Origin: Nitrosopumilaceae archaeon
GTDB taxonomy: Archaea; Thermoproteota; Nitrososphaeria; Nitrososphaerales; Nitrosopumilaceae
Direction of reading: 5' to 3'
Length of the DNA stretch: 10,078 nucleotides
Assembly: GCA_007571225.1 (NCBI GenBank)
Contig: RKRU01000024.1
Location: forward strand, 1-10,078
The position numbers were made by a program, and so were the translations under genes. Numbering within the stretch: position 1 is the stretch's first letter; every line of letters begins with the position of its first letter. The notes under the pieces were generated by a model. The model saw only the letters and a program-made list of their open reading frames with translations, was not told where the DNA came from and did not search any database. This document shows positions 1,963 through 9,945 of this stretch, piece by piece.

Positions 1963-3777
1963 TTGAAATTCCAAGGTAAGACGGCCGTAATAACAGGAAG
2001 CGGGACAGGCATCGGTCTGGCCATTGCAAAAAAGTTTGCAGAGAACGGTGCAAGTCTGATTATACTTGGAAGGCGCAGAGAGCCCCTAGAGGCCGCTGCA
2101 CAAGAACTGCAGGCCATAATGCGCAAGAGCAACAATCTAGATGGTGCAACCGTAAGGGTATTTTCTGGAGTGGATGTGGCAGACGAGAAGACCGTAAACG
2201 GGATGTTTGATCAGCTTGAGGCAGATGGTGTGGAGATAGATTACATGATTAACAATGCAGGAGTATCCGGACCAGTAAAATGCTTTGTAAGCGCCCCCAT
2301 AGACGACTTTCGAAGCACCATACACATACACCTGACAGGAACGTTCTGGGGGTCGGTACAGGCGCTGCGCGTAATGCGGCGCGGTGGAAAGATAATTACA
2401 ATATCCACATTCTTTACAGAGGAGAGGCCGCTAGAGCAGAGGCCGTACAGGTTTAGAAGCCCATACACTGCATCGCAGGGGGCAAAGAACAGGCTGGCCG
2501 AACTACTCTCATGGGAACTTGTCGGGACAGGCATCACATCCATAGCAACAAATCCAGGGCCGGTCCACTCAGACCGCATATACAAGACCGTATATCCAAA
2601 GGCCGCAGCCGAGTTCATGAGGGTGTCCGGGTTTGAGGAGATGACCCCATCAGAGGTTGCAGATGCATCGGCAGATCTGCTACCGCTGCTAGGCGAGGAC
2701 CCCGGTACGATATCAAACGGGATTAAAGCAGTAGCCGCAAGGGTGGCCGCAGGCAAGGAGGAGGACACAACGCCGGAGGCTGTTGCAAGCAGACTCACAG
2801 GACTGTTGGAGAAGATACAGACCATTGCAGAGAAGGTTCAGAAGAATACGTCGCGCATGATTGCAAACCAAGAGTTTCTCTCCCAAGCACAGGTGGCCGA
2901 GTCGGTACTCAACTTGTGTGATGATTCCATATCGGCCATACTTGACGGCAAGGTGGTTCCAGGCGACAGGGTATTTTATCCGGTAAAGCCACATGTAGGT
3001 GGAGCCCCCCTTCTCCCTCCGTCATTTAAGGCAGAACCAGACCTTGCAGGCAGTACGATACTGCTAGCAGTCGATCCGTCAGACGACACTGCAGATACAG
3101 AAAAGATAGAATATATGATAAACCACATACGAAAAGACTGCGGCGCCAAGGTAGTCTGCTTTATATCCAAATCCACGCCCGACGGCACGGCCAAAAGCAT
3201 ATCAAACCTAGTACACTCCCACGTCATAGATCTCAGTGATCCAGATGAGGTATCAAGGTGGTTCAATACAGCCCAGGCCAAGATGGGAAAGGTTGCCGGG
3301 TTGGTCCACATTACAGGCAGGCTTCCAGACATTCTAGAGATGGCAAAGGTGTCACGCAGCGAGTGGAACGAACTGGTAGAAAAATTCATCACAAGGCCTG
3401 CAATTACCACACAAAAAGCGCTCGATCTCTTTGTACCCGGCGGAGGCGAGGATCCGCGCCTCTTCAAGGATTCAGACGGCGTCGTGATGATTGTGGGTCC
3501 AGAGCTCCCCTCAGGCAGGAAGGTTACGGGCGCCAAAAGGGCGCAGACTGAGGTATTCCGCGGGGCGCTAAGGCCATTTACTGCTACTGTCAATCAGGAA
3601 CTAGGTGATGTCCTTGGTTCCAACATACGCGTCTTTACTGCACTGCCAGGATCAGTTACAGGGGCAGCAGCGGATCCACAGAAGATAGTCGATCTCTTTG
3701 ATCTGCTGCTGATGTCAGGCGAACCCGTATCCTCACTCTCCACTGTAATATTCTGCACCGACGAGGCACGACGCTAG
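1963..3777 (+). CDS. Two-domain short-chain dehydrogenase/reductase, related to the N-terminal half of Chloroflexus malonyl-CoA reductase
   Basis: The N-terminal domain (about 1-260) is a classical SDR: TGSGTGIG (11-18) binds NAD(P), NNAG is at 97-100, S148 and Y168 are at the catalytic positions, and NPGP is at 197-200. Residues ~355-604 form a second Rossmann-like domain with no glycine motif, so probably non-catalytic. The two-domain plan and the stretch SPYTASQ to PGPVHSDRIYKTVY resemble, from memory, the N-terminal half of Chloroflexus malonyl-CoA reductase, which reduces malonate semialdehyde to 3-hydroxypropionate. A role in the archaeal 3-hydroxypropionate/4-hydroxybutyrate cycle is therefore possible but is inference; a different, iron-dependent alcohol dehydrogenase is the reported enzyme for that step in Nitrosopumilus. 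Odd: Q172 (codon cag, 2476-2478) replaces the Lys of the YxxxK motif. The start is TTG, chosen because MKFQGKTAVITG is a normal SDR beginning and the TATA spacing fits. SDR membership is certain; the substrate is not. Confidence 0.88.
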   Translation: MKFQGKTAVITGSGTGIGLAIAKKFAENGASLIILGRRREPLEAAAQELQAIMRKSNNLDGATVRVFSGVDVADEKTVNGMFDQLEADGVEIDYMINNAGVSGPVKCFVSAPIDDFRSTIHIHLTGTFWGSVQALRVMRRGGKIITISTFFTEERPLEQRPYRFRSPYTASQGAKNRLAELLSWELVGTGITSIATNPGPVHSDRIYKTVYPKAAAEFMRVSGFEEMTPSEVADASADLLPLLGEDPGTISNGIKAVAARVAAGKEEDTTPEAVASRLTGLLEKIQTIAEKVQKNTSRMIANQEFLSQAQVAESVLNLCDDSISAILDGKVVPGDRVFYPVKPHVGGAPLLPPSFKAEPDLAGSTILLAVDPSDDTADTEKIEYMINHIRKDCGAKVVCFISKSTPDGTAKSISNLVHSHVIDLSDPDEVSRWFNTAQAKMGKVAGLVHITGRLPDILEMAKVSRSEWNELVEKFITRPAITTQKALDLFVPGGGEDPRLFKDSDGVVMIVGPELPSGRKVTGAKRAQTEVFRGALRPFTATVNQELGDVLGSNIRVFTALPGSVTGAAADPQKIVDLFDLLLMSGEPVSSLSTVIFCTDEARR

Positions 3778-6498: not shown

Positions 6499-6533
6499 CC
6501 GTCTGAAGCCATATCAGTCGGCTACATTGTAGC
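6499..6533. repeat. 35-bp direct repeat, first copy (intergenic)
   Basis: It is identical over 35 bases to 6570-6604. It ends in the dyad GCTACA-t-TGTAGC (6521-6533). This copy lies outside any gene. Confidence 0.9.
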
Positions 6534-6569: not shown

Positions 6570-6604
6570 CCGTCTGAAGCCATATCAGTCGGCTACATTG
6601 TAGC
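6570..6604. repeat. 35-bp direct repeat, second copy (overlaps the argS 3' end)
   Basis: This copy covers the last three codons and the TAG stop of argS (6593-6604) plus 23 bases downstream of the gene. Its dyad GCTACA-t-TGTAGC spans the stop codon. The two copies start 71 bases apart, and flanking sequence outside the 35 bases does not match. Confidence 0.9.
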
Positions 6605-8911
6605 AGGGGCCTCTATTCCGATTAGTCCAAGCGCCCTCTCAATCGTGAGCCGGAACATTGAAACTAGGTAGAGTCTGGCATCCTCCAAATTATGATCTTC
6701 AAGTCCCAAGACCCTGTTCTTCTCATAGAATATGTTGAATCCGACTGCTAGATCATGACAGTAACGAGCGGCCACCTTGGGAGAGAGGTTTGTGACAGCA
6801 TCATGGACGTACGTGTCAAAGGACCCAATCAGCCTGATCAGGTTTCTTTCAGACGGTTCTGTCAGCAACCTGTAGTCTATGTGTGACGGCAGTTGCCTCT
6901 TGGCCTTTTCTAGTATGCGCGATGCTCTTGCCCCCGCATACTGTATGTATGATGCCGTGTCGCCTTCTAGGCTTAGTGAACGAGTGAGATCAAATGTGAT
7001 AATCTTGTCAAGATCCTGCCTTATCATCTCGTACCGTATGGCACCGACAGACAGGGCATGGGATATGCTCTCCACTTTTTGTTTCTTCATGTCAGGATGG
7101 CGCTTTTGCGTTTCAGATGTGGTCTTTTTGCGCAGTATCTCATATACGGAATCGGCATCCACGTATATTCCTCGGCGGCCAGACATATGCGCTTGGCGTC
7201 CCTCAGTATCCATCCCTAGGGCCGCTGCGGTTTCAGGACTTAGCGTAACCGACTCGTACCCCAGATGAATGTAGGCATCATCATTGTTGTTATTGCTGTC
7301 AGTATCGTTGTTATTATTACCACCACCTTCAACACCACTGTTAACACCACCGTCATTGCCGCCGTCATTGCCGCCGTCATTGCCGCCGTCATTGCTGCCA
7401 CTATAGTCATTGCTGCCACTATAGTCATTGCTGCCACTATAGTCATTGCTGCCACCACCATCACCATCACCACCACCATCACCATCACCACTATCATCAC
7501 CATCACCATTATCATCACCACTATCATCACCATCATGCAAGCCAAACCTAAAGCGACGCATCAGCCCGGCCACAATCTTTTGCAGGCCGGACTGGCGGTA
7601 GTCAACTACCGTAATGACTCGTGTGCCGGCAAAGCTTATCGTTTTAGCTCCATCATGCTTTAGCGTGGTCTGCCACAAGACGCCAGTACCCGGCTGTTCC
7701 CTGTCACTATATGCAACGTATGAAAATGGATCATCTAAAAGTCCGAGCTTCCATGCCGCGTACGGGATATCCTTTGCAATGTATGTTGCAGTACCATTGC
7801 TTCGGACCAGTACCTTGTCATTGTTGTTATCATCATTATCGTCATCGTTGCCACTAGCGTCATCGTTGCCACTACCGTCATCACTATTGTTGCTGTTGCT
7901 GTTATTATTGTCGCTGTTGTCGTTGCCGCTGCAATCCACATTGTCCCCGCCGGAGCCGTCGTTATTTTTTCGTCTGCCCCTGCCTGCCGCGCCTATATCG
8001 TCCCCTCCGGGTATGACCCAGCAACCCTTGTTTCTACCGCCCGTTCTCAGCTCGATCACTTCTGCATCCTTTAACTTTTCAAATACCGCACCCCACAGTC
8101 CAGAATGTATTATCTGTGACTCAAAGTTCAGACAGTCATAATATACAGAAAGGTTCCAGCATGTCTCAAGCTGGTCGGCAAGTACGCGCCGCGTTATCAC
8201 ATCTGCAAATCTTGCAGTCTCCGAGCCAGCATCCTCAATCTCCTGCAGCGTCTCCTTTCTTATACCTTCAAGGCTCCCGTCTGATTCGTACCTTTTGACC
8301 GTATTGACGTACACATCGTCCCCGCAGTACTGTGCAAACTTTTTGCCCGGCGGGGGCTCCATGCCAAACCCTAGATGCCAGAACCCGACTATAATATCGG
8401 CGACTTGGAGTCCAGAGTCGTCGACATAATTGAGAACGTTCACGCGGTATCCTGCTTTGCGCAGTATTCGGGATATGGTATCCCCAATTACGATGTTTCT
8501 GATGTGTCCTATATGCAGGGCCTTGTTGGGGTTCACGCTCGTATGTTCCACCGTTATTATAGTGCCGTCTCCCATATTGACACTGCCTGCAGTCTCCAGA
8601 CGGGCCCCGTCAAGTATGACACCAGAAAGGCTATCCCAGTCGGCAAAAAAGTTTACGTATCCTGACGGATGCGGTTTCGAGTACGACACCAATCCGCCGG
8701 ACCTCTTCTCTGCATTGTAGCGGGCCGATATCGTTGTGGCAATCTCGCGAGGGCTCTTTTTGAGTACGCCGGCAAGCAAAAACGCCACATTGGAGCTTGC
8801 ATCGCCGAATTCGGGCCTTGCAGCAGGTACTACGCTGAACTCCACATCAGGATTGGCAACCAGCGCATCCAGTCCTTTTCTAATCTCATCAAGCAAAAGT
8901 CGAAAGGACAT
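6593..8911 (-). CDS. argS: Arginyl-tRNA synthetase with two low-complexity insertions
   Basis: This class I synthetase charges tRNA-Arg with arginine. Seen in order: an N-terminal tRNA-binding domain with EFGDASSNVAF (34-44), TSVNPNKALHIGHIRN carrying the HIGH motif (133-136), NYVDDSGLQ (161-169), VLVRSNGTATYIAKDI (367-382), HMSGRRG as the archaeal KMSKS equivalent (575-581), and a helical anticodon-binding domain (~645-772) with YIQYAGARA. At 772 residues it is well above the usual ~560-630. The excess is two Asn/Asp/Gly/Ser-rich blocks, residues ~303-365 and ~459-546, each in a position expected to be a surface loop, while the catalytic motifs on both sides remain intact and in frame. The ATG overlaps the stop of the phosphatase gene by one base (TAATG), so translation is coupled. 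The protein is expected to be functional, since no second argS or stop is seen here. Confidence 0.96.
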   Translation of the reverse strand: MSFRLLLDEIRKGLDALVANPDVEFSVVPAARPEFGDASSNVAFLLAGVLKKSPREIATTISARYNAEKRSGGLVSYSKPHPSGYVNFFADWDSLSGVILDGARLETAGSVNMGDGTIITVEHTSVNPNKALHIGHIRNIVIGDTISRILRKAGYRVNVLNYVDDSGLQVADIIVGFWHLGFGMEPPPGKKFAQYCGDDVYVNTVKRYESDGSLEGIRKETLQEIEDAGSETARFADVITRRVLADQLETCWNLSVYYDCLNFESQIIHSGLWGAVFEKLKDAEVIELRTGGRNKGCWVIPGGDDIGAAGRGRRKNNDGSGGDNVDCSGNDNSDNNNSNSNNSDDGSGNDDASGNDDDNDDNNNDKVLVRSNGTATYIAKDIPYAAWKLGLLDDPFSYVAYSDREQPGTGVLWQTTLKHDGAKTISFAGTRVITVVDYRQSGLQKIVAGLMRRFRFGLHDGDDSGDDNGDGDDSGDGDGGGDGDGGGSNDYSGSNDYSGSNDYSGSNDGGNDGGNDGGNDGGVNSGVEGGGNNNNDTDSNNNNDDAYIHLGYESVTLSPETAAALGMDTEGRQAHMSGRRGIYVDADSVYEILRKKTTSETQKRHPDMKKQKVESISHALSVGAIRYEMIRQDLDKIITFDLTRSLSLEGDTASYIQYAGARASRILEKAKRQLPSHIDYRLLTEPSERNLIRLIGSFDTYVHDAVTNLSPKVAARYCHDLAVGFNIFYEKNRVLGLEDHNLEDARLYLVSMFRLTIERALGLIGIEAPATM
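7274..7537 (-). repeat. Tandem-repeat DNA coding for ArgRS insertion 2
   Basis: It codes for residues ~459-546. On the plus strand a 12-bp unit cgtcattgccgc occurs about four times (7351-7398, coding NDGG), followed by three perfect 18-bp units cactatagtcattgctgc (7399-7452, coding YSGSND), then irregular cac/cat trinucleotide tracts to ~7537. All unit lengths are multiples of three, so expansion or loss keeps the frame. Confidence 0.85.
7817..8005 (-). repeat. Low-complexity DNA coding for ArgRS insertion 1
   Basis: It codes for residues ~303-365, a basic start (RGRRK) followed by Asn/Asp/Ser/Gly runs such as SDNNNSNSNN. Repetition is less regular than in insertion 2, suggesting an older or more mutated expansion. 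It ends directly before the DKVLVRS strand of the catalytic domain. Confidence 0.75.
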
Positions 8912-9819: not shown

Positions 9820-9870
9820 TGTAGGAACTGGGGTGTAGGAACTGGGGTGTAGGAACTGGGGTGTAGGAAC
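9820..9870 (+). repeat. 14-bp tandem repeat, array 1
   Basis: Three perfect units of tgtaggaactgggg (9820-9833, 9834-9847, 9848-9861) are followed by a partial unit ending at 9870. The unit length is not a multiple of three, which argues against a coding role. Confidence 0.95.
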
Positions 9871-9906
9871 AACGTGAACCATTGCACCGTGATTACATCT
9901 TAAGAC

Positions 9907-9945
9907 GTAGAAACTGGGGGGTAGAAACTGGGGGGTAGAAACTGG
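9907..9945 (+). repeat. 14-bp tandem repeat, array 2
   Basis: Two full units of gtagaaactggggg plus a partial unit. It is a variant of array 1 (shared core GTAGRAACTGGGG) 36 bases further right, with the change G to A fixed in all its units, so the two arrays expanded separately from a common ancestor. Confidence 0.95.

Follow-up and report, generated by a model that had tools for sequence, protein, structure and literature searches.

The closest described systems come from Plasmodium, whose proteome is pervaded by low-complexity stretches (PMC7534687) and whose apicoplast PfMetRS carries a 35-residue low-complexity insertion in CP1 (PMC4828885). We analyzed a 10,078-nucleotide stretch of DNA from a Nitrosopumilaceae archaeon, hereafter the window, in which argS, the gene for arginyl-tRNA synthetase (ArgRS), contains inserts of a similar kind. 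The window is the entire contig C17 of a genome, G000, that comprises 1,288,408 bases in 214 contigs and is 69% complete.

The inserts share with those of Plasmodium that they are hydrophilic low-complexity stretches inside conserved essential enzymes, including aminoacyl-tRNA synthetases, and that many conserved proteins of the genome carry them (12 of 301 sampled open reading frames [ORFs]; 36 of 183 proteins compared with an ordinary relative, G021). Asparagine dominance and an AT-rich genome are absent from G000: whereas the Plasmodium inserts are Asn runs in an AT-rich genome, the window's archaeon has a GC content of 50% in our sample, and its inserts mix Asn, Asp, Gly, and Ser according to one codon class, RRY (purine-purine-pyrimidine), which codes for these four amino acids only. 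In this sense, the window's insert works in the manner of the Plasmodium low-complexity inserts, without being one of them.

In the titles and abstracts surveyed, with most subscription journals and preprints lying outside the survey, we found no report that inserts of this type occur in the synthetases of archaea, or in the present archaea at all. The words “disordered” and “synthetase” do not occur in the main text of a study of Thaumarchaeota in sponges, according to which 7 of 11 sponge-associated genomes have GC contents of 47 to 67% (PMC7848895). A scan of genome contigs with one relative of the window's ArgRS, P0013, gave one locus, which came from a Thaumarchaeota bin. For the window's archaeon, a plausible home would be among sponge symbionts with high GC contents.

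The argS gene and its two inserts

The argS gene (8911-6593, minus strand) encodes a full-length ArgRS of 772 residues and contains no internal stops. Its ORF exceeds the cut-off of the TIGR00456 argS model (320 bits vs. 261.65) and stays below that of the longer ArgRS model NF002447 (372.4 vs. 460), and the Pfam families found above cut-off were Arg_tRNA_synt_N, DALR_1, and tRNA-synt_1d, the last over residues 114 to 241 only. The HIGH motif (8504-8515, minus strand; residues 133 to 136) and the KMSKS-type MSGR loop (7175-7186, minus strand; residues 576 to 579) can both be recognized, and the invariant columns of 24 ArgRS rows include H133 to H136, I134 and G135 excepted, and M576 to R579. 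Judging from the sequence, catalysis is probably normal despite both inserts. The window's argS is the single ArgRS match in G000, at the completeness given above. A perfect 35-bp direct repeat (6499-6533 and 6570-6604, 71 bp apart) is found at the 3′ end of the gene, with its second copy spanning the end of argS and the stop codon.

The reported insert, at a position that we call site 2, occupies 7277-7537 on the minus strand (residues 459 to 545) and is an RRY-coded N/D/G/S tract, 86 residues beyond the usual loop. The original prediction had placed a block of about 88 residues at 7274-7537; the block is present, but it starts at 7277 and has 87 residues. Of these, 79 are Asn, Asp, Gly, or Ser (28 Gly, 23 Asp, 17 Asn, and 11 Ser) and 24 are acidic, with no Lys or Arg. 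RRY codons make up 79 of the 87, compared with 101 of 635 in argS outside both inserts. Chance does not account for these runs: the longest pure RRY run in argS reaches 31 codons, whereas in 2000 codon shuffles the longest runs averaged 5.1 and never exceeded 11, and the window contains 51 overlapping matches to ten consecutive RRY triplets, compared with none in 200 dinucleotide shuffles.

Several tandem arrays, all read on the minus strand, make up much of the site 2 insert: a 12-bp array (7350-7399; 4.2 copies, 97% identity) of GGND units, an 18-bp array (7388-7455; 3.8 copies, 100% identity) of SNDYSG units, and GGT/GAT-rich arrays (7452-7535) with periods of 12, 18, and 30 and identities of 80 to 92%. 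The perfect repeats that had been claimed for both of the first two arrays are therefore confirmed for the 18-bp array only. Across the units of that array the third bases are identical too, which indicates recent duplication at the DNA level. The expectation of a recent-looking expansion that preserves the frame within a loop of the catalytic domain was borne out. The insert separates the helix that follows VVDYRQ from the strand YIHLGYESV, a position that by the logic of the class I fold should be opposite the active site. Its predicted pLDDT is 25 to 33, a value that is not diagnostic, since conserved segments, those with HIGH and MSGR among them, also fall below 50. Most likely, the insert is a tolerated, disordered loop of the ArgRS catalytic domain.

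An ORF on the other strand (7265-7663, plus strand) overlies the site 2 insert and would encode 132 residues of Ile, Thr, Val, and Ala. This composition follows from RRY being RYY when read backwards, and the ORF is probably not a gene.

The second insert, overlooked in the original prediction, fills the site 1 loop (7817-8011, minus strand; residues 301 to 365). It is also RRY-coded, most densely at 7817-7930, and 45 of the 51 codons over 7817-7969 are RRY. Site 1 has a single 18-bp tandem array (7840-7882, minus strand) of 2.4 copies at 96% identity and looks older than site 2.

Loop lengths among relatives

Two protein searches gave 3984 and 4054 matches, and we collected the best 120 of each, together 170 different proteins, from a database whose entries are representatives of 90% clusters. 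Adding 29 genome loci (L002 to L030), a further locus (L112), and the window brought the set to 201 proteins, whose loops we measured from anchor motifs. Among the matches listed, site 2 could be anchored in 193 proteins, with 22 residues in 191 of them, 23 in one, and 108 in the window; eight of the 201 measured proteins, each of 628 aa, were without the site 2 anchors. The relatives' argS genes, whose comparison the original prediction had suggested, thus share no insert of fixed length at this site, and none of the 192 other anchored proteins among the matches listed has an insert there at all.

Site 1 could be anchored in 192 proteins among the matches listed, 173 with 7 to 11 residues and 19 with 38 to 65, the window having 65; nine of the 201, of 627 to 630 aa, were without these anchors. 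A third site (LWQTTL to FAGERVITV) was anchored in 200 proteins among the matches listed, with 8 to 9 residues in 195 and 12 to 40 in five. Long inserts at site 3 occur in P0011 (710 aa; Ala-rich), P0122 (with an Asp run), and P0121, and the window has none. Three loops of the catalytic domain therefore accept insertions, and site 2 is used by the window alone among the measured proteins. The ordinary Nitrosopumilus-type ArgRS of about 628 aa and the Pyrococcus horikoshii ArgRS (2zue) differ from that of the window: in those ordinary proteins that were measured, all three loops are short.

In a tree of 26 ArgRS rows, built with the variable loops excluded and midpoint-rooted for drawing only, 18 rows including the window separated from 8 others with support of 100/99. 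All 18 rows on the window's side have long site 1 loops, and the window's ArgRS is at most 71% identical to every other row of the tree. The other members of this clade (those around P0001 to P0013, and L002, the ArgRS of the sister genome G029) resemble the window in their long, variable, hydrophilic site 1 loop, which is N/D/G/S-rich in some, such as P0001, but differ from it in having no insert at site 2. Nine close clade members, 91.1 to 96.2% identical outside site 1, have site 1 lengths of 39 to 57 residues that differ in 35 of their 36 pairs. Length variability is thus established for the site 1 loop, the neighbor of the reported site 2. One protein that groups with the other 8 rows, P0029 (667 aa), has about six NEKDR repeats at site 1; since it lies outside the window's clade, site 1 has probably been filled at least twice.

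RRY tracts and insertions across genomes

We searched for RRY tracts in samples of three genomes: 80 contigs of G000 (27 reading N were omitted, leaving 426,400 bases); twenty stretches, 147 kb in all, of G029, which belongs to the same genus and has an ArgRS in the window's clade; and forty stretches, 800 kb in all, of G021, a one-contig genome of the same genus with an ordinary ArgRS. At a score of 12, the G000 sample had 27 tracts, the two ArgRS inserts included, compared with 8 for G029 and none for G021; at a score of 8, the counts were 51, 18, and 1. Codon-class shuffles gave a mean of 0.0 tracts in each genome (for G021, in the first 400 kb). The tracts are thus widespread in sampled G000 and in its sister G029 and nearly absent from the one ordinary relative, G021. 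GC content in these samples is 50% in G000, 59% in G029, and 38% in G021, but it is not an obvious cause of the tracts, because transitions shift GC without altering the purine and pyrimidine classes.

Within the G000 sample, 13 tracts fall in 12 of the 301 ORFs. The original prediction had called such a tract unusual for an essential enzyme; for this organism the sample gives no support to that view, as many of its other genes have comparable tracts, and the ArgRS inserts are the most extreme case of the genome's repeat-expansion habit. According to Pfam, NCBIfam, and reading of the ORFs, the hosts include ValRS, CysRS, HisRS, ProRS, UreD, and a PP-loop protein; terminal tracts occur in the C-terminal tail of ribosomal L24, at the N-termini of MCM and a UbiX-family protein, and at the C-terminus of an Mre11-like protein that scores under the cut-off of its NCBIfam models. 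Five of 13 synthetase ORFs (12 from three family searches plus ArgRS) have tracts, the other eight being named by ORF reading. The ValRS of G000 extends about 60 residues beyond five relatives and about 45 beyond G029, and its UreD about 82 residues beyond G013 and G009 and about 75 beyond G029, with no match in three other genomes; the HisRS and ProRS inserts appear in comparison with G021. The long tail of L24 (L075:8308-8985, plus strand) contains a run of Thr and Ala as well as DDDDNDGTS blocks, which recur up to the contig end. The ValRS match of G021 (L186; C1:235273-237084) has one TGA within its matched frame.

Internal insertions of at least 8 aa were also counted, independently of any tract, in reciprocal-best-hit protein pairs. 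Relative to G021, 36 of 183 G000 proteins had insertions (48 in total), with an RRY fraction of 0.33 vs. 0.16 in aligned codons; in the reverse direction, 8 of 183 G021 proteins had 15 insertions (RRY 0.12 vs. 0.15 aligned). G029 compared with G021 gave insertions in 14 of 62 proteins (RRY 0.34 vs. 0.16), and the reverse in 1 of 62. Between the two sisters, insertions occurred in 10 of 75 proteins either way, those of G029 with an RRY fraction of 0.34 and those of G000 hardly enriched (0.20 vs. 0.16). G000 and G029 thus both exceed G021 in insertions, whose codons are enriched in RRY but include many others. This weak enrichment of G000 against its sister, together with the two thirds of its inserted codons relative to G021 that are not RRY, suggests that RRY slippage explains only part of the insertions.

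Most tracts inside ORFs of at least 120 aa use the sense RRY frame (G000: 13 of 17, P = 9e-8; G029: 5 of 8, P = 0.005; 1/6 expected), in a test whose result is inflated both by how the ORFs were selected and by the RRY codons already present in genes. ORFs of this size leave about 20% of the sequence uncovered, and 10 of the 27 G000 tracts are located there; at least two of the ten belong to real genes, one encoding the beta subunit of a urease and the other a Rieske protein. Tracts outside genes favor a mutational source, and the in-frame excess favors a filter.

Proposed origin, alternatives, and other features of the window

Any transition turns an RRY codon into another RRY codon, and a stop codon is at least two transversions away. 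We consider it probable that the ArgRS insert is an in-frame expansion that arose by RRY slippage or unequal recombination, in a lineage that keeps such tracts widely. In the proposed sequence of events, period-three RRY DNA would slip, or recombine unequally, and give in-frame low-complexity expansions, which the genome of this lineage would make and retain widely. Each tract could then grow and drift while always coding for a hydrophilic loop, with stops remote; this closure under transitions and distance from stops may explain why the tracts survive. Two loops of the ArgRS catalytic domain would have been filled in this way, an older one at site 1 that is length-variable in the clade and one at site 2 whose gain is seen in the window's sequence only. 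The survivors would for the most part have kept the frame and persist as tolerated loops, acidic and probably disordered. The tracts that we observe, with their codon class, their in-frame bias, and their spread over relatives and the sampled genome, can in this manner be read as products of slippage, with tolerance as the likely reason for their retention.

The main alternative with a biological role is that the tracts are selected, as strongly acidic flexible spacers that serve solubility, tRNA or partner binding, or the pacing of translation, the last following a tRNA-sponge idea proposed for Plasmodium (PMC10813123). The recurrence of tracts in translation proteins and the prevailing N/D/S/G frame of those within ORFs (the 13 of 17 and 5 of 8 above) are consistent with such a role, but tolerance predicts the same frame bias, tracts also occur outside ORFs, and sequence, length, and site are unconserved, with site 2 private to the window and site 1 differing between near-identical proteins. 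We therefore regard selected function as unlikely. That the insert is an artefact of assembling or binning short repeats from a fragmented metagenome is less likely still: repeats assemble poorly, the genome is incomplete and in many contigs, and the site 2 insert is in no second sequence among the matches listed, but the frame stays open through the tract's 258 bases and the sequence on either side, similar tracts occur in at least 12 of 301 sampled ORFs and in the separate genome G029, and 18 other proteins have long site 1 loops. The exact number of units may nevertheless be off.

We give hardly any credence to an intron, an intein, or another element that is removed before the enzyme matures. 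A conserved domain is indeed interrupted, and an insert at site 2 is seen in the window's sequence only; against this, the insert is open in frame and built of simple RRY repeats, and RNA folding is slightly poorer than in shuffled sequences (z of 1.30 at site 2 and 2.25 at site 1). Inspection by eye showed no intein motif, and the Pfam and NCBIfam matches include no intein model. We also rejected the idea that the insert holds a structured RNA, a riboswitch, or an intron, as the fold is not unusual and the window has no Rfam match at gathering thresholds.

Two further candidates were set aside. Loss of the NucS mismatch endonuclease was considered as a cause, and its family, PF01939, is unmatched in G000; however, it is matched in just 1 of 18 relatives of the same genus, so that its absence does not set the lineage apart, and that sole match, in the 9% contaminated genome G009, has a stop within its frame. 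The other candidate was a copy of an element present in other places: searched as a protein in 21 genomes, the insert hit only itself, under a scoring that is weak on low-complexity sequence, and a plasmid DNA search gave one match (3%).

In-frame expansion from RRY DNA, if it is indeed the source, turns one odd enzyme into a sign of a lineage-wide mutational habit, with RRY as a simple coding rule to explain the survival of such inserts. More tentatively, and with one ordinary relative sampled genome-wide, it is possible that a Nitrosopumilus-like lineage has passed through a genome-wide expansion of RRY trinucleotide repeats, probably still in progress, by which N/D/S/G loops enter essential enzymes, as an archaeal, GC-balanced counterpart to the low-complexity proteome of Plasmodium in which transition closure and distance from stops govern survival. 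Sister and ordinary relatives make the supply of mutations and selection testable against each other for low-complexity invasion, outside AT-rich eukaryotes.

Elsewhere in the window, an ORF of 604 residues (1963-3777, plus strand) has two stretches that match short-chain dehydrogenase models and is apparently a fused double-domain protein. Near the contig end, two 14-bp tandem arrays (9820-9870 and 9906-9945) consist of related units, TGTAGGAACTGGGG and GTAGAAACTGGGGG, with 100% identity inside each array.
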